64,000 nucleotides of DNA from an uncultured Chlorobiaceae bacterium (lineage in GTDB: Bacteria > Bacteroidota > Chlorobiia > Chlorobiales > Chlorobiaceae), in NCBI GenBank assembly GCA_903839405.1, contig CAIMCD010000018.1, forward strand, positions 1-64,000. The letters run 5' to 3'. Numbering within the stretch: position 1 is the first letter of the stretch; every line of letters starts with the position of its first letter. Both the position numbers and the translations under genes were made by a program. Below, piece after piece: positions 36,227 to 59,993 of the stretch. The notes under the pieces are model-generated. The model was given only the letters and a program-made list of their open reading frames with translations. It made no database searches and was not told where the DNA came from.

Positions 36227-37528
36227 ATGAAAAAACGAGTTGTTATAGTAGGTGGAGGATTTGCAGGACTTAATGCCGCCAGAGTACTGGGCAATAAAGT
36301 GGATATTGAAGTTACCCTGATCGACCGGAAGAACTACCACCTTTTCCAGCCACTCCTCTATCAGGTTGCCATGGCGGCACTTGGCGAGGGCGACATTGCT
36401 GCGCCTCTCCGAAACATGCTGGCGAACTACCAGAACATCACGGTATTCAAGGGAATAGTCGAGCAAATCGACATGAAAAGGAAAACCGTCACAACCGATT
36501 TCGGCGATATTGAGTATGACTACCTGATCCTTGCCTGTGGTGTGCAGCACCACTATTTCGGCCACAACGAGTGGGAGGAGTTTGCACCCGGACTGAAAAC
36601 CCTTGCGCAGGCAAAAGAGATCCGGCGGCGAGTGATGGAGGCATATGAGTGTGCCGAAAGAACCAAGGATCCGGTGGAACGCAAAAAACTCTTGACCTTT
36701 GTGATTGTGGGAGGCGGCCCGACCGGCGTGGAGCTTGCCGGTTCAATCGGCGAAATGAGCCGCTACACCCTCTCAAAATTTTACCGGAACATCGACCCCA
36801 AACTCACCCGAATCTTCATTGTTGAGGCGGCGCCGCGCATTCTTGGCTCTTTTGACCCTGAGCTGGCCAGCAAGGCAACCCGTTCTTTGGAGAAACTCGG
36901 CGTACAGGTCTGGGCAAGCAGCATGGTGACTGACGTTGATGCGGACGGTGTACAGATCGGCAATGAACGCATTGAGGCCGCAACCGTACTATGGGCCGCT
37001 GGTGTAACGGCCATCACCATCGGCAAAAAAATGGGGCTTGATACCGACCGGATCGGGCGGATTGTGGTTGATAAAGACCTCAGCATAGCTCCTCATCCGG
37101 AGATCTTTGTGGGCGGTGACCTTGCATACTTTGTACCGGAAAACGGCATCCCGCTGCCGGGGCTTGCGCCTGTAGCCCTGCAGCAGGGACGGGCTATCGG
37201 CAGGAACATTCTGCTCGACAGCAAACAAAAGCCGCGGAAAGCCTTCCGCTACCGCGACAAGGGCCAGATGGCCACCATCGGAAAAAACAAGGCCATCGTA
37301 GAGTTCGGCAAAATAAAGTTTGATGGTATTTTTGCCTGGTTCACCTGGCTCTTGGTGCACATCTATTTTCTCACCAGCTTCCGTCACCGGGTCTTTGTGC
37401 TACTCCAATGGGGATGGTCATACTTCACCTTCAGCTATGGTGCCCGCCTGATTGTCAATCGCGAATGGCGCTTCTATCCAAACGCTAAGGAGCCGGCAAA
37501 AAGCACTACAACAACCGACAAAAGCTGA
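36227..37528 (+). CDS. ndh: Type II NADH:quinone oxidoreductase-like flavoprotein
   Basis: NDH-2 enzymes are membrane-bound flavoproteins that pass electrons from NADH to quinone without pumping protons. The 433-residue protein has the FAD motif VVIVGGGFAGLNAARVL at residues 4-20, the NDH-2 pattern HLFQPLLYQVAMAALGEGDIA, a second nucleotide motif VIVGGGPTGVELAGSI and the FAD-ribityl motif VGGDLAYF, then AVALQQGR-like quinone-site sequence (PVALQQGRAIG) and C-terminal hydrophobic helices (FAWFTWLLVHIYFL). The following small membrane-protein gene overlaps its stop (TGATG). It could also be another quinone reductase of this superfamily, but it lacks the cysteines of sulfide:quinone reductase. 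Confidence 0.88.
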   Translation: MKKRVVIVGGGFAGLNAARVLGNKVDIEVTLIDRKNYHLFQPLLYQVAMAALGEGDIAAPLRNMLANYQNITVFKGIVEQIDMKRKTVTTDFGDIEYDYLILACGVQHHYFGHNEWEEFAPGLKTLAQAKEIRRRVMEAYECAERTKDPVERKKLLTFVIVGGGPTGVELAGSIGEMSRYTLSKFYRNIDPKLTRIFIVEAAPRILGSFDPELASKATRSLEKLGVQVWASSMVTDVDADGVQIGNERIEAATVLWAAGVTAITIGKKMGLDTDRIGRIVVDKDLSIAPHPEIFVGGDLAYFVPENGIPLPGLAPVALQQGRAIGRNILLDSKQKPRKAFRYRDKGQMATIGKNKAIVEFGKIKFDGIFAWFTWLLVHIYFLTSFRHRVFVLLQWGWSYFTFSYGARLIVNREWRFYPNAKEPAKSTTTTDKS

Positions 37529-37737: not shown

Positions 37738-37973
37738 ATACAACCATATCAGATAGCGTGATAGAGTTCACTCTCCCACCCTAAAATTTACGTATTTTGA
37801 TCTTGATCTTAATATCATACGCTGTAAAGCAACAGTCTTTCGACACATTTATTTTGTACTACCGTATTTTCTATGCAGCGACTTAAGTTCTTACTCCAAT
37901 AATCACATCAATACGCAAGCAAAGAATCTGGTTTAAAAAATCTACCGGTCAACCATTTGATTCCGTTGTTCCA

Positions 37974-38363
37974 CTAAATTATTCGAAAACCCGTAATTAT
38001 TATAAGCCAAGAAATTACAAATACAAAAGGAATCCCAATATTACATGTCCACCCTAACATGGTTGAGATATAAGAGACAAAATAAGTGCTAAGGCCATAC
38101 TCATTTTTAAGACGATGCATCGCTATAATTGCACCAATCACTCCCATAAAAATAAAAACACTTGTCAATAGTCCTATTATTGGGACGAGGCAAATTAACA
38201 AATAAATTTTTGGCGACTGACAGGTTGCTGAGGTAATGGAGATACCATAAGCTGTAAAAAGTAATGATTGTGTAACACCAAGCCATGACAATCTATTGTT
38301 GACAAAATCTTCTTCTAATTTCCATCGAGCCCTTCCTTCTGATAAATTATCATTGTCATCCAT
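37974..38363 (-). CDS. Small membrane protein of the AT-rich operon
   Basis: The 129-residue protein has an amphipathic N-terminus (ARWKLEEDFVNNRLSWLGVTQ) followed by three hydrophobic segments (about residues 33-50, 53-78 and 103-127). I know similar small membrane proteins in other bacteria only as hypotheticals. It is 74 bases downstream of deoC in the same direction, in AT-rich DNA, so it may belong to the deoC-SDR-radical SAM transcript or be an independent newcomer. Confidence 0.65.
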   Translation of the reverse strand: MDDNDNLSEGRARWKLEEDFVNNRLSWLGVTQSLLFTAYGISITSATCQSPKIYLLICLVPIIGLLTSVFIFMGVIGAIIAMHRLKNEYGLSTYFVSYISTMLGWTCNIGIPFVFVISWLIIITGFRII

Positions 38364-38437
38364 ATTCTTTCACTGAAATATTAACATCTCGCTTATAAAA
38401 TATTTTTTGATTTTGGAGGGAAAAATAGAAAAGGACA

Positions 38438-39121
38438 TTATTTTGAAATTATTTCATATTCTTTTATTATATCAACACTTTTGGAGCAACCAAGTCTTGT
38501 TGCACCAGCTTGCAATAACAATAATGCATCCTGAAGTGTCTTTATTCCTCCTGATGCTTTGACTCCAGTTTCATTACCAACAACGCCTCGCATCGTCTCA
38601 ATATCTTTAATAGTAGCAGATCCTCCAAATAAGCCTGTATTTGATTTAACCAAATGAGCGCCAGCTTCTTTAGCTAACAGACATGCTTTTTTAATTTCCC
38701 ATTCTGTCAGAAGCTGTGTCTCAATTATTACTTTACAGATTTTTCCAGAAATTGCATTTATCACCATTTCTATATCATTTCTTACAAAAGCATAATTACC
38801 ATCCTTAAAAGCCCCAATATTTAAAACCATATCAAACTCTTCTGCGCCATTCATTAACCCCTCTTGGGCTTCAAATACTTTCGTACTTGTAGTATTTGCA
38901 CCCGTAGGAAAACCAATCGGAACACCAACCTTAATCGAAGTGCCATGCAAAAGAGTCGCTGCATATTTGACTCGGCAAGGATTGACAAATACCGCTGAAA
39001 AGCCATATTGCACTGCATCTTGACAAGCTTGAGCTATCTCAATCTGTGTTGCATCTGATTTTATAATAGTATGATCAATGATGTTGGCGAGTTTACTTAC
39101 ATATAGTTTACTCATACTCAA
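38438..39121 (-). CDS. deoC: Deoxyribose-phosphate aldolase
   Basis: DeoC splits 2-deoxyribose 5-phosphate into acetaldehyde and glyceraldehyde 3-phosphate, or makes it in reverse. The 227-residue protein has the class I aldolase residues in place: IDHTIIKSDAT, EFDMVLNIGAFKDG with the catalytic Asp, the Schiff-base Lys in LVKSNTGLFGGSATI and the second Lys in VKASGGIKT. No other deo gene is nearby. Instead it sits in an AT-rich group behind an SDR and a radical SAM gene, so a biosynthetic use in a sugar pathway is plausible. Codon use is clearly more AT-rich than in the core genes. Confidence 0.92.
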   Translation of the reverse strand: MSMSKLYVSKLANIIDHTIIKSDATQIEIAQACQDAVQYGFSAVFVNPCRVKYAATLLHGTSIKVGVPIGFPTGANTTSTKVFEAQEGLMNGAEEFDMVLNIGAFKDGNYAFVRNDIEMVINAISGKICKVIIETQLLTEWEIKKACLLAKEAGAHLVKSNTGLFGGSATIKDIETMRGVVGNETGVKASGGIKTLQDALLLLQAGATRLGCSKSVDIIKEYEIISK

Positions 39122-39252
39122 ATATAAATATTAAAAAAACAGCGCTTTAATAATATTCAAAATAAACATTAAGCAAAGATTTCAGGCAAAAGCTTAAAAT
39201 ACCTTAGAATATATTACAGCATTATTTAACAATACAAATACAGATCAATTAG

Positions 39253-40152
39253 TTATTGATCATATTCTTCACTCAGAACTTTCATGTGAAGCAACCCTTC
39301 ATCTAGACTCCATATCCTAGTTTTTAGCAATTTTGACACTTTCAGATTTATCATAGAACAATCAGCCGGCCTATAATACCTAAAATCTACTTCACTGATC
39401 GATATCGGCACAATAAGTTCATTACTAAAATGAAATATTTCAGCCATTTTCAAACCAAACTCATAGCGACTTACTCGTTTTGATCCACATATATGATATA
39501 ACCCCTGAAATTCTTTACACAAAGCCAATTCCATCAATATATCACATAAATTATTTAAATATATAGGTGACCTGTATTCATCAATAAACAACTCAACCTC
39601 TTTATTATTCATTAAATCTATCATTATTTTTTCCGCAAAACACTTTGACAAATTTGCACTAATTCCATAAACAAGTGAAATTCGTGCAATACAATAATCA
39701 GAGCACACAGAAATAACTATATTTTCGCCGTCTAATTTTGTCCTTCCATAAAAGCATGATGGTTCAGCACCATCTTCCTCCGCATAAAATTTTTTATTAC
39801 CAGAAAAAACATTATCTGTCGATATATATATTAATCTTGCATTAACTTTTTCTGCTGCTATTGCGATATTTTCCACACCACAAACATTAACACTGCAAGC
39901 ATATTGCTTATTATTCTCACAAATAGCTGCATTTGCTATTGCAGCAGTATGAATTATAACATCTGGTCTATATCGGCAGAACAAATCCTCCACTTTTTTC
40001 TTATCAGTAATATCCAAATGCAATAAAATAAAATGACCATTTTGATTAACTGGTGATGTACTGTATGTAATAATTGTTTTTATCTGCAGCGATAGTATAG
40101 ATGCTAATGATCCTCCCAAAAACCCAGCCCCACCAGTTATCAAGATAATCAT
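39253..40152 (-). CDS. NAD-dependent sugar epimerase/dehydratase family protein (RmlD-like)
   Basis: The 299-residue protein is an extended short-chain dehydrogenase: the NAD(P)-binding ILITGGAGFLGGSLASIL at the N-terminus, HTAAIANAAICENN, a Ser/Thr-Asp in YISTDNVFSG and the catalytic Tyr-x3-Lys in CFYGRTKLDGE. Features such as DNVFSG and the C-terminal RPADCSMINLKVSKLL resemble dTDP-4-dehydrorhamnose reductases, which act on sugar nucleotides. It starts 10 bases after the radical SAM gene ends, so the two are surely cotranscribed, and 131 bases precede deoC. The real substrate is unknown. Confidence 0.85.
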   Translation of the reverse strand: MIILITGGAGFLGGSLASILSLQIKTIITYSTSPVNQNGHFILLHLDITDKKKVEDLFCRYRPDVIIHTAAIANAAICENNKQYACSVNVCGVENIAIAAEKVNARLIYISTDNVFSGNKKFYAEEDGAEPSCFYGRTKLDGENIVISVCSDYCIARISLVYGISANLSKCFAEKIMIDLMNNKEVELFIDEYRSPIYLNNLCDILMELALCKEFQGLYHICGSKRVSRYEFGLKMAEIFHFSNELIVPISISEVDFRYYRPADCSMINLKVSKLLKTRIWSLDEGLLHMKVLSEEYDQ

Positions 40153-40162
40153 CTATATTAAA

Positions 40163-41764
40163 TCAAAACTTTTTAGCTTCATCTATCAGGGCATAGATAT
40201 CGCTTTCACTTTTCTTACCCAATTCATCTATTACTTCATTTACTTGAATTACACTAAAACCATCTTTAACAACGAGTTCATTTATCGCATGAAGGAACTT
40301 ATTCGTAGCGTTTCCAAATGGCGGACAAACTTCACATGTGCATGTATATGGCATTCCATTTGTTAAGTACTCCCGTCTCTTGCCATTCCATACATCTTCA
40401 AACTTATTATTAATGATATTACCAAAAGTAATTGAAGCCGGGGAAGTATTATGATCACACAAATACAAGTTACCATCAGAGCCAACAGTAGAAAGAAAAT
40501 TATGATAATAACACCCATCCTCACAACTCCAATTTCTGAAAGACTTACTCTTTATATTTTCTACAGAATGTATAGCCGACACCTTAAACGAATAATCCTC
40601 AAGTTTTTTTGCATTAATTATTTGATTTCTTACAATCTTAAGTTGTTCTTTGTTTAATAAATTTTTATCTCCAATATCGCATTTAAAACGTATTGAGTCA
40701 CATCCGATTTCTTTAACTTTTTTTGATACTGTGTATATTTCTTTATGATTATCCGGGCAAATAACATAACCAATATTAACCTTGAGCGGCCTGTTATGTT
40801 CTTTCTTTTTGGCAATTAAATTACTAATATTATTTATGATTTTTTCATATGTACCTTTATTTCGATTCCGTATTTTCTTACTCTCTTTCAACCAATAAAA
40901 TGATTCTGGTCCACCATCCAGACTAACATGAACATAAGTAATTCGTGATAAAAGATCCCAAGTCTCCTCATCATCCATCTTAACTCCATTAGTAAATAAT
41001 CCAATTTTTCGACCCGAACCTAAGCATCGTCGAATTGCTTTATGCGTTACCTCTTTAGTTTTGGCACTCACAAGAGGTTCACCAATATAGCCGGAAAACT
41101 TAATCATTTCTACACGCAGACCATCATCAGTCTTATAGTCCAATATGGTTCCGAGCAATTTTTCGACATTACTTTCATTGATATTATTAGGTAAGCATTT
41201 AACATTATTCTTTTCTTCAATTTCCTGCCCTATACACCACAAACAGTATAAGTTGCACAAACTGCTAATCTGAATTTCGATTTCAAATGGAGGAAATTTT
41301 TTATCTTTCTTTTTAATACTTTCAACAAAAGCCTTTAAATATTTAGTCTTTTCTTTCAGAAGAATAATAATGTAATACAAATCATCTTTGTTAATAGATA
41401 AAAGAAGCTTCTTTTTTATTCCTTCTTTTTGCATTGTTGCGGAGGCTGTGAAAGCACCACTTGCCATAAATCTTAGAATACGATTATCAGTGGCGGCCTT
41501 TTTTTTAATCTCTTCAGGATCAGGATTATCAACAACAGCAATCACAATATATGGAGGAGAAAGATCCTTGGCAGGCATATTCACATCAATTTGTGTCAAA
41601 CCTGAAAATGAGAAATATTTCAGATTGAGATGATTACTGTACCAACCTTGCAAGTGCAATACTTCGTTGATGGGGCGATTTGCATCAGTAATGTCAACTT
41701 CTGTGACAGAAATATCATTTCCGATAGAAGATGTGGCGAGTAGAAGTATCATATTCGGACACAT
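40163..41764 (-). CDS. Radical SAM/SPASM domain enzyme of unknown substrate
   Basis: This 533-residue protein starts at the ATG at 41764 (a second Met lies at codon 5). Residues 1-165 form an N-terminal domain I do not recognise. The radical SAM core follows: CNLYCLWC (C-x3-C-x2-C) near residue 172, FSGYIGEPLV, and VHVSLDGG. The C-terminal SPASM-type region holds at least six further Cys (CEDGCYYH, YLCDH, CTCEVCPPFG), enough for auxiliary iron-sulfur clusters. SPASM enzymes modify peptides or act as sugar/aminocyclitol dehydrogenases; with an SDR and an aldolase next to it, a sugar-like substrate is more likely. The gene is strongly AT-rich and leads its operon. Confidence 0.87.
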   Translation of the reverse strand: MCPNMILLLATSSIGNDISVTEVDITDANRPINEVLHLQGWYSNHLNLKYFSFSGLTQIDVNMPAKDLSPPYIVIAVVDNPDPEEIKKKAATDNRILRFMASGAFTASATMQKEGIKKKLLLSINKDDLYYIIILLKEKTKYLKAFVESIKKKDKKFPPFEIEIQISSLCNLYCLWCIGQEIEEKNNVKCLPNNINESNVEKLLGTILDYKTDDGLRVEMIKFSGYIGEPLVSAKTKEVTHKAIRRCLGSGRKIGLFTNGVKMDDEETWDLLSRITYVHVSLDGGPESFYWLKESKKIRNRNKGTYEKIINNISNLIAKKKEHNRPLKVNIGYVICPDNHKEIYTVSKKVKEIGCDSIRFKCDIGDKNLLNKEQLKIVRNQIINAKKLEDYSFKVSAIHSVENIKSKSFRNWSCEDGCYYHNFLSTVGSDGNLYLCDHNTSPASITFGNIINNKFEDVWNGKRREYLTNGMPYTCTCEVCPPFGNATNKFLHAINELVVKDGFSVIQVNEVIDELGKKSESDIYALIDEAKKF

Positions 41765-42574
41765 AGACTAAATGAATTAAAGGTTGATCGCCAGTTTTGT
41801 CAAAAAAAGAAGGCCAACTAAAATTCCGGAACTCATTGAGTTAGTTTTAGAACAGATATAGGCACAAATTGAACAATCTTTTGTAATCTGTTAGAGCTAT
41901 TTAAGACTCATGGGACAGTCCTGCACAGAGTGAACGGTACTTCTGGCTACGTACTATTTATGCGACTTGGGTGTGGCAAAGCAAATCAGCTACGTCTATC
42001 GTACATCACTATATAAGTCGTGGAACGTTGTATGACTTCATTTGAAATATGCAAAAAATAAATACTTCAAACAAGATAATTATTACAAAATTACGTACTA
42101 TTATCAGCCAAAAACCGTATAAATAGCAAAGAGCAAAAAATTATCAAGCACTCAAAGCGCCAGCAAATTGAAAGTATTTTTACTGTATTTTTTTGAGGAA
42201 TTGACAAAAACGAGTTAGAGCGCTTTACATTGTTGTTATAAATCAACCATTCCGATCAATACCGGCAACGGCATTTACCGGCAGAGAGCGTGCACGGACG
42301 AGGGAGATTTCTCCTTGCAGTCGAAATGACACCGGGGTGTGCCTCCTCGGAACACAGGCGGCATCAATCCATCAGCCTTTTTCCGATAAAAAATCAGGGC
42401 AAAACGTTTCCCATCCCTTGGAAATTGATTTTTTCCGTAGATTCACCCTTGTATCAATCTCTCCTGCTTTATTATGATGGTGGTTACGCTTGACTCTCTG
42501 TAGCCAACCAGTTACAGGCAAACAAGCGCAGGAAGAGAGTCCCGAAGAATGTTATTAAGCATAGAGAACAGAGC
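41765..42574. other. Long AT-rich gene-free region between the island and argD
   Basis: These 810 bases hold no gene I can support; a 67-codon frame at 42290-42493 lacks a ribosome-binding site. The left part should contain the promoter of the radical SAM operon, which reads left from 41764. The right part holds a promoter-like TTGACA site at 42201 and a GGAGATTTCTCC inverted repeat at 42303-42314 followed by GTCGAAATGACA, a wording I associate with dispersed palindromic repeats. The change from AT-rich to normal composition near 42240 looks like the edge of acquired DNA. Confidence 0.5.
42201..42230 (+). promoter_or_regulatory. Candidate promoter upstream of argD
   Basis: TTGACA at 42201-42206 and TTACAT at 42225-42230 are spaced by 18 bases, a fair sigma-70-type pair directed at argD. 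It would give a leader of about 340 bases, so a nearer promoter for argD may exist. Confidence 0.3.
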
Positions 42575-43786
42575 ATGAAACCATTGGCCGTAAACCCGGA
42601 AACCGAAAAGAAACTTTTTTTCCATAATTATGCCCGGCTTCCCATCGCTGTAACGCATGGCGAAGGGGTGTGGCTGGTCGGTGATGACGGCACCCGTTAT
42701 TTGGACATGATTGCTGGCATCGGCGTCAATGCCCTCGGCTATGGCGACCGGCGTCTTGTTGAGGCAATCAGCACGCAGGCGGCAAAACTGATCCATGCAT
42801 CAAACCTCTTCATGATGCAGCCGCAGTTTGAGCTGGCTGAAAAGCTGCTCGCTCTCTCCGGGCTCTCGAAGGTCTTTTTTGCCAACAGCGGCACCGAAGC
42901 CATTGAGGCGGCCATCAAGATGGCCAGAAAATGGGCCGGTCGCTTGGGCGACACGAATAAAAATGAGGTGCTCTCCTTGAGCAACTGTTTCCACGGCAGA
43001 ACTTACGGCGCCATGTCGCTCACAGCCAAACCGAAATATTCCGGCGGCTTCGAACCGCTCCTGACCGGCACCGGCATGATTGCCTTCAACGATATTACAG
43101 ATCTTGAGGAGAAGGTTTCCGAGAAAACTGCTGCTGTTTTTATTGAGGTAATCCAGGGCGAGGGCGGTATCCATAAAATTTCACAACCCTTTATTGACCG
43201 ACTGAAAGAGCTGCGCGAGCAGTATAACTTCCTTATTGTGGCTGATGAAATCCAGGCTGGCTGCGGAAGGAGCGGAAAGTTTTTCAGTTATAGCCTGCTT
43301 CAGGCTGACCCCGATATGGTCTGCCTTGCCAAGCCGCTTGGTGGCGGGCTCCCCCTCTCGGCCGTGATCGGCAACGAAAAGGTGGCTGATGTACTTGAGT
43401 ATGGCAACCACGGCACTACCTTCGGAGGCAACCCGGTAGCCTGTGCTGCGGGCATTGCCATGATCCAAGCCATTGAGGAGGACAAGCTCACCGAACATGC
43501 GGAGGAGATCGGTCGGTTTATGCATGAGGAGTTGCAGAAACTGGCAGAGAAACATCCGCAAATCCTTGAAATCCGCCAGTATGGACTGATGATCGGCATC
43601 ACGGTCGACAAGGAGGCAAAAGGGTATGTCGTCAAAGCACTCCAGAAGCAGTTACTTATAAACGCTACCAGCATTAACGTTATCCGCCTACTCCCCCCGC
43701 TCGTCATCAGCCGGGAGGAAGCTCAACTCTGTATCACGCTGCTTGATGAGATCCTTACCGAAGAAAGAGCCGAAAAAAACGGTTGA
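42575..43786 (+). CDS. argD: Acetylornithine aminotransferase
   Basis: ArgD transfers an amino group from glutamate to N-acetylglutamate semialdehyde in arginine synthesis (and often serves lysine synthesis). The 403-residue protein is a class III PLP aminotransferase: [45 protein letters not shown], and the PLP Lys in [17 protein letters not shown], with [17 protein letters not shown] typical of ArgD. Related 4-aminobutyrate or ornithine aminotransferases cannot be wholly excluded. No other arg gene is adjacent. The downstream DUF3098 gene overlaps its end. Confidence 0.93.
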
Positions 43787-55980: not shown

Positions 55981-58782
55981 TCAGGTTGTTTTTTTCCGTG
56001 CAGAGTTCGGCTTTTTGTGCATGGCGTGGGTAAGTGGTTCTGCGTATTTGCCATAGAGTTCAAAAAGATATTCAAGGCGTTCGAGTTCGGTTTTAAAGGG
56101 TGAGCGGCGGTAACAGGCATCGACCGCTTCATCCAGCTCCCGGTGTGCCTTGAGCAGCTCTTTTGGCATGGCAAGCGGGTCGTAGAGATCGGCAAGGGTT
56201 GAACCGGCAAAGAGTTCACGAGCTGCAAGCACGACCTGAGCCTTCTCCTCAACTTTTGCCTCTTGCTTTTCGCTGACGGCTTCAGGGAAGGGAAAATTGT
56301 TGTAAACCAGATTATTGGAGTACCGGTAATCGCTTTTAAGCCTGCCGCATACCGCCCGCATCCATGCCATGTGCATGGTGCTTGTTAAAATTCCAAAATG
56401 ATAAAGAGTTGCGTTGGGTAGTGCCGAGCAAGAGTTATGAAGTATGTTTTCCTTTGTAAAATACCCCATAGGCACAAACCTGCGGTGTTCGGAGGAATGG
56501 AGAGGAATCACAACATAGTCAGTTGTCGGCTGACGAATTTCTCCAAAAAGATAGGGCGTTTCGGCTAATGTAATCGTTGCATTTTTTATGCTTTTCAATC
56601 TAAAATCTCTCACGGCTTCTACCCGTTTTACAATTTCAGACAGACCTCTCCATTCTCTCGGCGGTAAATCTTTTAGCCAAAGACACCAGCGATTTTTGCT
56701 GTTGATAAATTCAAGAGCACTAATCAACGGCCGGATAAATATAGAAGCCTTGGGCTCTTTCGTCAGGAATTCCTCTTTTTCCTCGTCAGTCAAAAAAAGG
56801 TTTCCATCATCAACAGGTTTACTTCCATAAATCATTTCCGGCACATTGCAAAGTGGCTTGTTGCGCGAAGGTATAACAATATCGGGAGCATCGACAAGGT
56901 AGGGGTTAATATTCTTGGCGATAATTTCGTGTGCTTCGCTTTGCGGGGTTTCGTAGTCGAACAGCCGTTTGGTTTCGTTACGGCCATCGTATGAAAAACC
57001 GATAATAACGCAAAAGACCTGTGCTTTGCCTCGGGCTTCGTTGCTCCATTTGAAGGTGCGGTGTGCAAAGCTGATTTTGATGCCTTTTGCGAGCAGGAAT
57101 TGCCAGAGCACAGCAACCTGTTCACCCTGGGTAATGCTGTTGGTGGAGACGAATGCAACTTTAACGGTGCTGTTTTCGATAAATAGCGCTGCCTTGATAT
57201 ACCAGAGCGTTACATAGTCGAGAATGCCATAGTTGGGCAACCCTTTGGTTTTGAGTGGCTGGCAAACAACATCCATATCGTCCATTTGAGCCGCATTGCG
57301 GTTTTGCTTGCCAATAAAGGGCGGATTGCCAAGAATCAGAAGGTTCTCTTTTGACGGAACAAGCGTTTCCCAGTCGAGACGGATGGCGTTGTCGCAAAAA
57401 ATATTCGGAGAGTGAACCAGCGGCAGGCGGGCGTAGGTTTGACCGAACTCATCGGAGAGGCGCATGTTCATCTGGTGGTCGGTCAGCCAAAGGGCAATCT
57501 GGGCGATGCGCACAGGAAACTCTTCTATTTCAATGCCATAGAACTTGTCAACATCAATGTTTGAAATAACGCTGACGTCGGTTTCGAGCTGGGTTTTGCC
57601 TGCCCGGTAGAGTACCGATGTCAGCGTCAGGTATTGGCGCAACACGTCGATTTCGAGCAGGCGCATTTCACGGTAGGTAATCACCAGAAAGTTGCCACAC
57701 CCACAGGCCGGATCGAAAAAGCGCATGGAGGCAATTTTATCGTGAAAGGCCCGCAGCTTTATGGCGCTGGTTTTGCTTGATGCAAATTCGAGATAAAGAT
57801 CGTCAAGAAAGAGGCCGCGAATGACCTTGAGAATATTTTTCTCCGAGGTGTAATGGGCTCCAAGGTTGCGGCGGCGGTTTTTATCCATGACGCTCTGAAA
57901 CAGCGAACCGAAAATAGCGGGTGAAACCTTACCCCAATCAAAGATGCAGCACTCCAGAAGCAGCTCGCGCATGGCAGCGTCGAAACTCGCAATCCGCAAC
58001 GGTTCACGAAAGAGCGCGCCGTTAACGTAGGGAAAACGGGAAAGCTCTTCATCAAGGGTTTTCTGGCGTTTGTCGGAGGGCGTGTCGAGCACCTGAAAGA
58101 GATCGGCTATGGCTCTGCCAGTGTCGGAGCCATCCTCTTTGGTCTTTTCGCGAAGGTAGTACTCAAAGTCATCTTTGGTGTTGAAGATACCGGTATCGTC
58201 GGCAAAGAGGCAATAGACCAGACGAACAAGCAAGAGTTCAAGGTTGTGGCCGTCGTACCCTGAGTCAAGCAGGGCATCGTGGAGATGGCCCATTTTTTCG
58301 GCTACCTTTATGTTAACCGGGTCTTCGTCCTTGTAAATTCGTTTCTGGTAGCCGGAGATGAAACCAAAGCGACCTATGTTTTTGGGAAGCTCTGCAAGTG
58401 AGAACTCCTTGTCGGTGCCTTTGTCGAGATCGTAGAGACGGAAACGGGCGAAGTCGGACACGAGGACATATTTCGGAAGCTCTTCCTCTTTGAGATGAAC
58501 AAAATAGTCGAGCGCCTGCGTGTAGGCTTTATCGAGATCCTGCCCTTTGGACTTGTGTTCAACAACAAGCGTACCTTTCCAGAAGAGGTCAATGGAGCCT
58601 CGTTTTTCAGCCAGTTTTTTAACCGGTTCTTCAAAGGTTGCAACACGACGGCGCCGGATGCCGAAGATCATGAAAAATTCGTTCCAGAAGGTCTGCGATT
58701 CAGCTCGTTCGCGTGAGCCGTCACTCCACTCGTGAGCGAATTGCACTGCGTTATCGCGGATTTCCTTTTGATTCAGGGGCAT
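55981..58782 (-). CDS. MmeI-like (type IIL) restriction-modification enzyme
   Basis: This 933-residue single-chain protein combines endonuclease, adenine methyltransferase and DNA recognition. Near residue 68 it has a PD-ExK-type motif, Asp in IDLFWK and EHK nine residues later, the same D-x9-ExK spacing as MmeI. The methyltransferase part has motif I FFDPACGCGNFLV and motif IV LGNPPFIGK; the last ~300 residues contain the likely target-recognition domain and a helical tail. Length matches MmeI (about 920). One such gene can both protect and restrict DNA. The recognition sequence cannot be read by eye. It lies beside a RhuM-Fic gene. Confidence 0.88.
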   Translation of the reverse strand: MPLNQKEIRDNAVQFAHEWSDGSRERAESQTFWNEFFMIFGIRRRRVATFEEPVKKLAEKRGSIDLFWKGTLVVEHKSKGQDLDKAYTQALDYFVHLKEEELPKYVLVSDFARFRLYDLDKGTDKEFSLAELPKNIGRFGFISGYQKRIYKDEDPVNIKVAEKMGHLHDALLDSGYDGHNLELLLVRLVYCLFADDTGIFNTKDDFEYYLREKTKEDGSDTGRAIADLFQVLDTPSDKRQKTLDEELSRFPYVNGALFREPLRIASFDAAMRELLLECCIFDWGKVSPAIFGSLFQSVMDKNRRRNLGAHYTSEKNILKVIRGLFLDDLYLEFASSKTSAIKLRAFHDKIASMRFFDPACGCGNFLVITYREMRLLEIDVLRQYLTLTSVLYRAGKTQLETDVSVISNIDVDKFYGIEIEEFPVRIAQIALWLTDHQMNMRLSDEFGQTYARLPLVHSPNIFCDNAIRLDWETLVPSKENLLILGNPPFIGKQNRNAAQMDDMDVVCQPLKTKGLPNYGILDYVTLWYIKAALFIENSTVKVAFVSTNSITQGEQVAVLWQFLLAKGIKISFAHRTFKWSNEARGKAQVFCVIIGFSYDGRNETKRLFDYETPQSEAHEIIAKNINPYLVDAPDIVIPSRNKPLCNVPEMIYGSKPVDDGNLFLTDEEKEEFLTKEPKASIFIRPLISALEFINSKNRWCLWLKDLPPREWRGLSEIVKRVEAVRDFRLKSIKNATITLAETPYLFGEIRQPTTDYVVIPLHSSEHRRFVPMGYFTKENILHNSCSALPNATLYHFGILTSTMHMAWMRAVCGRLKSDYRYSNNLVYNNFPFPEAVSEKQEAKVEEKAQVVLAARELFAGSTLADLYDPLAMPKELLKAHRELDEAVDACYRRSPFKTELERLEYLFELYGKYAEPLTHAMHKKPNSARKKTT

Positions 58783-58988: not shown

Positions 58989-59993
58989 ATGATGAAACCG
59001 GTAACATCTCCAGAAAACAACGAGTCCGACAGAGGTGAAATTGTCATTTACCAAACCGGAAATACCAGCCCTGAACTTGAAGTTCGCCTTGAACAGGAAA
59101 GTTTGTGGCTGAATCAGAAACAACTATCTGTACTTTTTTCAACAGAACGAAGTGTTATCACAAAACACCTTCGAAATATTTTCAAAGAAGGTGAGCTTGA
59201 ACAGGAATCAGTATGTGCAAAATTTGCACATACTGCGCAGGATGGAAAACATTATCAAACAACGTTTTATAATCTCGACGCGATCATTTCAGTTGGATAC
59301 CGTGTAAACTCAAAGCAAGGTACCCGCTTCCGTATCTGGGCAACCGGTGTGTTGCGTAACCACATTATCAGGGGGTATACCGCTAATGAAAAACGGTTAA
59401 CGGAATTACAACAATCTTTTACAATTGCCCGAAATATTCTGGAACGCTATGACGTCACTTCCGATGAAGCCGCGGGTCTGCTGCAGGTTGTCACCAACTA
59501 TGCTTATGCCCTTGAACTGCTGGATGATTACGATCATCAACGCTTATCAGCCGGCAATGGCACTGAAAAACCTGCAACTGGAATCGATTATGATGAAGCT
59601 CTCGGTATTATTGCACGGCTGAAGGAAAAATTCGGTGCCGCAGAACTGTTCGGAAAAGAAAAGGACAACAGTCTTCAGGGCTCTCTTGCAGCAGTCATGC
59701 AAACCTTTGAAGGTCATGACCTCTACCCTGCACTTGAAGAAAAAGCCACTCATCTGCTTTATTTTCTTGTCAAAAACCACAGCTTCGTCGATGGCAATAA
59801 ACGCATTGCTGCAGCTCTCTTTCTCTGGTTCATGGAGAAAAATGGATTGCTTTATGAGCATACTGGAGCAAAAAGAGTAGCCGACAGTACGCTTGTGGCG
59901 ATGACACTCTTGATTGCAGAAAGTAATCCTAAAGAGAAGGAGATGATTGTTGCCATGAGCCGAAATCTCATCACTGATGTCGGCATCAGGTGA
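58989..59993 (+). CDS. RhuM-Fic/Doc fusion protein
   Basis: The 334-residue protein joins an N-terminal RhuM-type domain (ESLWLNQKQLSVLFSTERSV, FRIWATGVLRNHIIRGY, residues ~30-140) to a C-terminal Fic/Doc domain with HSFVDGNKRIAAALFLWFM. The Fic motif is HxFxDGNKR: it keeps the catalytic His, the acidic residue and the Gly-Asn, but has Lys-Arg where canonical AMP-transferring Fic has Gly-Arg, as in Doc-type enzymes. Fic proteins modify proteins with AMP or phosphate; this architecture is known from virulence-associated genes but its target is not. No antitoxin-like inhibitory gene is adjacent. It is divergent from the restriction-modification gene. Confidence 0.87.
   Translation: MMKPVTSPENNESDRGEIVIYQTGNTSPELEVRLEQESLWLNQKQLSVLFSTERSVITKHLRNIFKEGELEQESVCAKFAHTAQDGKHYQTTFYNLDAIISVGYRVNSKQGTRFRIWATGVLRNHIIRGYTANEKRLTELQQSFTIARNILERYDVTSDEAAGLLQVVTNYAYALELLDDYDHQRLSAGNGTEKPATGIDYDEALGIIARLKEKFGAAELFGKEKDNSLQGSLAAVMQTFEGHDLYPALEEKATHLLYFLVKNHSFVDGNKRIAAALFLWFMEKNGLLYEHTGAKRVADSTLVAMTLLIAESNPKEKEMIVAMSRNLITDVGIR

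Follow-up and report, generated by a model that had tools for sequence, protein, structure and literature searches.

Radical SAM/SPASM (rSAM) proteins encoded in sugar and polysaccharide clusters are the closest described counterparts of the locus analysed here; the nearest relatives of its own rSAM protein, 22-27% identical over the core, are found in such clusters together with SDR, SIS, transketolase halves, DegT, and either NTP-transferase/PfkB or UDP-galactopyranose mutase. One example from the same genome (G000:C46, L041 9078-16520) comprises genes for SIS, an rSAM/SPASM protein, an SDR, a further rSAM, an APH-family protein, two transketolase halves, and a methyltransferase, and a similar set in another genome of the genus (G073, L042) combines paired rSAMs with transketolase halves, an NTP-transferase, and a PfkB gene. 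The pSVL1 cluster of Streptomyces vietnamensis and the pDCAR1 cluster of Solidesulfovibrio contain UDP-galactopyranose mutase, DegT, transketolase halves, and cytidylyltransferases. Like the protein studied here, the rSAMs of C46, pSVL1, and pDCAR1 possess a Radical_SAM core and, mostly, a SPASM tail, and TIGR04317 is the top model both for it and for five of the five context rSAM/SPASM proteins, with scores that in every case fall far short of the cut-off. At 20-27% identity to it, they differ in lacking an N-terminal region and in residing in large clusters with transferases. The arrangement in C46, where the SDR gene directly follows the rSAM gene at a distance of 13 bp, compares with the 10 bp spacing observed here, whereas the carbon-carbon enzymes located near the rSAM in C46 and pDCAR1 are transketolase halves and the present locus has DeoC instead. 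To our knowledge, no described pathway uses the set of rSAM, SDR, and DeoC, and literature searches pairing radical SAM with DeoC, and on the gene set itself, returned no described pathway of such kind.

The locus lies in a 64,000-nucleotide stretch of DNA from an uncultured Chlorobiaceae bacterium, hereafter the window, whose gene content suggests a green sulfur bacterium of the Chlorobium type. It has the following features:

36227..37528, plus strand: native left flank, NDH-2-type NADH dehydrogenase gene, syntenic in relatives
37739..42400 (approximate extent), no strand: acquired AT-rich islet, lying between argD on the right and, on the left, the NDH-2 gene and the small ORF that follows it
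37974..38363, minus strand: small membrane protein, 129 aa, two or three hydrophobic segments
38438..39121, minus strand: DeoC (TIGR00126), 227 aa if started at TTG, 225 aa if started at the ATG two codons further on
39253..40152, minus strand: extended SDR of the RmlD_sub_bind family, 299 aa, GGAGFLGG at 7 and YGRTK at 135
40163..41764, minus strand: rSAM/SPASM protein, 533 aa, CNLYCLWC at 170-177, GEPL at 228, SPASM at 418-481
42575..43786, plus strand: native right flank, class-III aminotransferase gene, argD-like, syntenic in relatives

The initial annotation, made from the sequence of the window, had described an AT-rich operon of four leftward genes at 37974-41764, and the four ORFs, with the SDR gene 10 bp after the rSAM gene, were recovered at these positions. 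The lower GC content relative to both flanks was also borne out: the rSAM, SDR, DeoC, and membrane protein genes have GC values of 0.33, 0.32, 0.36, and 0.34 (32-36%) and GC3 values of 0.23-0.28, against 0.50-0.57 and 0.62-0.66, respectively, in the measured host genes. The AT-rich segment is larger than had been proposed, extending from approximately 37739 to a right edge somewhere in ~42200-42400. The rSAM and SDR genes are the only tight pair in the islet, with DeoC located 131 bp after the SDR gene and the membrane protein gene 74 bp after DeoC.

It is well supported that this four-gene islet of ~4.5 kb is foreign and was inserted between the NDH-2 gene and argD. The order hemN, purE, cupin-like gene, NDH-2, argD is kept across the genus, and the gap between NDH-2 and argD measures 240-547 bp in 29 of the 30 same-genus loci in which both genes were found (the contigs of L112 and L121 stop before NDH-2 is reached), compared with 5,046 bp in the window. 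Homology to relatives ends at 37738, just past the conserved small ORF that follows NDH-2, and is restored on the right by ~42400, possibly from ~42200. In one relative (G033), the corresponding gap of 3,140 bp holds other genes, including one for an AAA-type ATPase, and the presence of different cargo at the same position indicates that the site has been reused. The G033 locus (L113, G033:C99, 3098-5602) encodes a 302-aa protein without a Pfam match and an AAA-type ATPase whose gene is split over two ORFs. Inspection of the islet edges revealed no integrase, transposase, or clear direct repeats. A contaminant contig was considered and ruled out by the syntenic native flanks on both sides within an 80-kb contig, misassembly being formally possible. 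DeoC was detected in one of the 65 genomes of the genus, namely that of the window, and the rSAM protein found no match at E<=1e-15 in 60 relatives and none at 1e-18 in a 395-genome sample of the phylum outside its own genome. Close to the islet site, the cupin-like/NDH-2 interval represents another insertion point, with a gap of ~4.8-5.0 kb in three loci; in some relatives an autotransporter-like ORF of ~1500 aa lies between the two genes (L013 5231-9781, L125 1703-6220).

The most notable item of the locus is the orphan rSAM with an unrecognised N-terminal region. Pfam assigns Radical_SAM (PF04055, 42 bits) to residues 165-342 and SPASM (PF13186, 33 bits) to residues 418-481, both above cut-off, and the protein carries the CxxxCxxC core (CNLYCLWC) and the SPASM Cys cluster that characterise the Radical SAM/SPASM superfamily. 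It belongs to no named subfamily represented in NCBIfam (TIGR04317, PapB, viperin, etc.), the best score being 53.6 bits against a cut-off of 380. That the first ~165 residues would be unrecognised also held, as nothing in Pfam or NCBIfam scored above cut-off over this region. The relatives align only from approximately residue 135-160 onward, and the first ~135 residues have no homologue beyond noise in 395 genomes and none in plasmids. The N-terminal and core halves of the gene are alike in codon-position composition, so the N-terminus is no obvious recent fusion or annotation error. AlphaFold prediction without an alignment gave uninformative models, with a pLDDT of 35 for the whole protein and 33 for the N-terminus.

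The SDR had been interpreted as sugar-type, which its RmlD_sub_bind score (PF04321, 185 bits) supports. It shares the fold family and the NAD(P)-binding and YxxxK motifs with the dTDP-4-dehydrorhamnose reductase RmlD, but falls below the cut-off of the RmlD equivalog model (TIGR01214, 178 versus 224 bits) and has no adjoining rmlABC; the genome has its own RmlD elsewhere (310 bits). The membrane protein, initially described as three-helical, has two unambiguous hydrophobic stretches and possibly one more. Its weak similarity over residues 17-75 to the 8xMP/RipA-type octameric membrane proteins (PF24838, 17.5 bits against a gathering cut-off of 30) does not make it a member on this evidence, and it has no match in plasmids or phages.

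DeoC was correctly described as canonical, passing TIGR00126 with 230.1 bits against a cut-off of 117.3. It retains EFDMV (motif at 95), KVIIET at 130, K159, and K188; from established DeoC enzymology, we take the Asp of EFDMV to be catalytic and K159 and K188 to be the Schiff-base and activating lysines. Compared with 38 homologues, it deviates at 7 of the 56 columns that are well conserved, and most of these changes are conservative. Relative to known DeoC proteins, its phosphate loop carries K at a position that is variable, and its KSNTG motif carries N, which unrelated DeoCs also have there. Two residues were considered as signs of specialisation. K214 in the phosphate loop, as a mark of a new substrate, is weakened by the occurrence of S, A, H, or N at this position in the 38 homologues, and KSNTG as a cluster-specific mark was rejected after 52 DeoCs with N there, of ordinary sequence and with no rSAM or SDR relative nearby, were found in the genome collection. 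The protein thus appears to have no clear specialisation, its altered residues varying in ordinary DeoCs too. The KTNTG variant of the DeoC motif KTSTG recurs in Bacilli MAGs, Desulfurococcales/Sulfolobales, and Actinomycetota (L046-L097). The isolation of DeoC from other deo genes, as first noted, was confirmed in the 95%-complete genome, in which neither deoB (phosphopentomutase, TIGR01696) nor PYNP_C (pyrimidine nucleoside phosphorylase) is detectable, the search having covered these two enzymes. Because both are missing, classical deo nucleoside breakdown is unlikely, and the host would probably not operate the textbook deo route.

The reading favoured here, held tentatively, is that the islet may be a small accessory sugar-modification cassette. 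Under this model, the rSAM/SPASM protein would use its CxxxCxxC cluster to form a 5'-deoxyadenosyl radical and would oxidise or rearrange a sugar or nucleotide sugar, which the N-terminal region might bind; the RmlD-type SDR, using NAD(P)(H), would act on a keto group of the rSAM product, either reducing or oxidising it; and DeoC might, via a lysine Schiff base, form or cleave the bond between a two-carbon unit (acetaldehyde) and a phosphorylated aldehyde. The reading is suggested by the genomic setting of the rSAM relatives, which are encoded in sugar clusters next to NDP-sugar SDRs and enzymes acting on carbon-carbon bonds. It is consistent with the apparent integrity of the enzymes, whose motifs and catalytic residues are kept, and with the lack of deoB and PYNP_C, which argues against nucleoside breakdown. 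Against it stand the ordinary appearance of DeoC, the absence of a glycosyltransferase, nucleotidyltransferase, or kinase from the islet, and the lack of a second genome with the set. Without these three enzyme types, "building" a sugar would depend on host genes. In addition, since the rSAM relatives are just 22-27% identical and have no N-terminal region, their substrate class may not transfer, and the 131-bp gap upstream of DeoC allows independent transcription. The deoxysugar-type role originally proposed in place of nucleoside breakdown therefore stands in part: the isolated DeoC and the sugar-cluster relatives agree with it, whereas the joint action of the genes is unproven and DeoC has no clear specialisation.

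Searches for the same neighbourhood in other genomes, suggested with the first description, did not find it. No second genome with the four genes was recovered by the close-relative and one-motif scans, and a close-relative scan with the rSAM protein across a species-representative genome collection and viral contigs yielded no relative. A DeoC scan of viral contigs likewise gave no relative, and two DeoC-motif patterns searched in the same contigs produced chance matches only. Since the gene-set scans cover close relatives or one motif, and the alignment of the rSAM family is too divergent for use as a search profile, absence elsewhere constitutes weak evidence. The failure to find the set in any other place is nevertheless the reason why joint action of the operon genes is unproven.

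The chief rival, a possible but somewhat doubtful explanation, is mixed cargo at an insertion hot spot, in which the acquired genes would be unrelated: an rSAM-SDR pair, a DeoC serving the clearance or use of deoxyribose-5-phosphate, and an independent membrane protein. The AAA-type ATPase and 302-aa protein at the same site in a relative fit this explanation, as do the gaps of 131 and 74 bp that set off DeoC and the membrane protein gene, the near-canonical sequence of DeoC, and the lack of a conserved neighbourhood, which extends to the 52 DeoCs sharing one rare motif, none of which adjoins an rSAM or SDR relative. However, the four genes share strand and composition within 3.8 kb, and there is no deoB or PYNP_C to feed a DeoC route. 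More specific than the sugar-modification cassette favoured above, and unlikely, is a new pathway in which three enzymes, an rSAM whose N-terminus forms a new substrate-binding domain, an RmlD-like reductase, and a DeoC put to a new use, would produce or attach a deoxysugar that is branched or extended by two carbons.

Peptide (RiPP) or protein maturation, in which the substrate modified by the SPASM protein would be a peptide and the remaining enzymes would attach or process a small group, is distinctly unlikely. Among the best NCBIfam matches of the rSAM protein are maturases of peptides and cofactors, PapB and YhhB for example, but all of these score far below cut-off and the sugar-cluster rSAMs share the top model; moreover, the islet and the sequence next to it yielded neither a convincing precursor ORF nor a recognised RRE (peptide-binding) domain. 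Finally, an anti-phage or stress defence cassette that would resemble prokaryotic viperins in altering or depleting nucleotides or sugars appears very improbable: the islet is small, foreign, and located at a reused site, a MmeI-type restriction gene is also present in the window, and PADLOC reports a weak viperin match (29 bits, E 1.4e-7), but this match reflects similarity common to radical SAM proteins in general (NCBIfam gives 36 bits, the cut-off being 180) and no other defence model was matched.

If the genes of the islet cooperate, as in the favoured sugar-modification reading, DeoC would have a biosynthetic role outside nucleoside breakdown, beside an rSAM of an unrecognised subfamily. 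Even if they act independently, the locus provides evidence of a reused insertion site in the genus and an orphan rSAM for whose first ~135 residues no relatives were detected. Further along the window, the restriction gene mentioned above (55981-58782, minus strand) encodes a MmeI-type restriction-modification enzyme of 933 aa with all five MmeI Pfam domains, and adjoins a gene for a RhuM-family/Fic-domain protein (58989-59993, plus strand).
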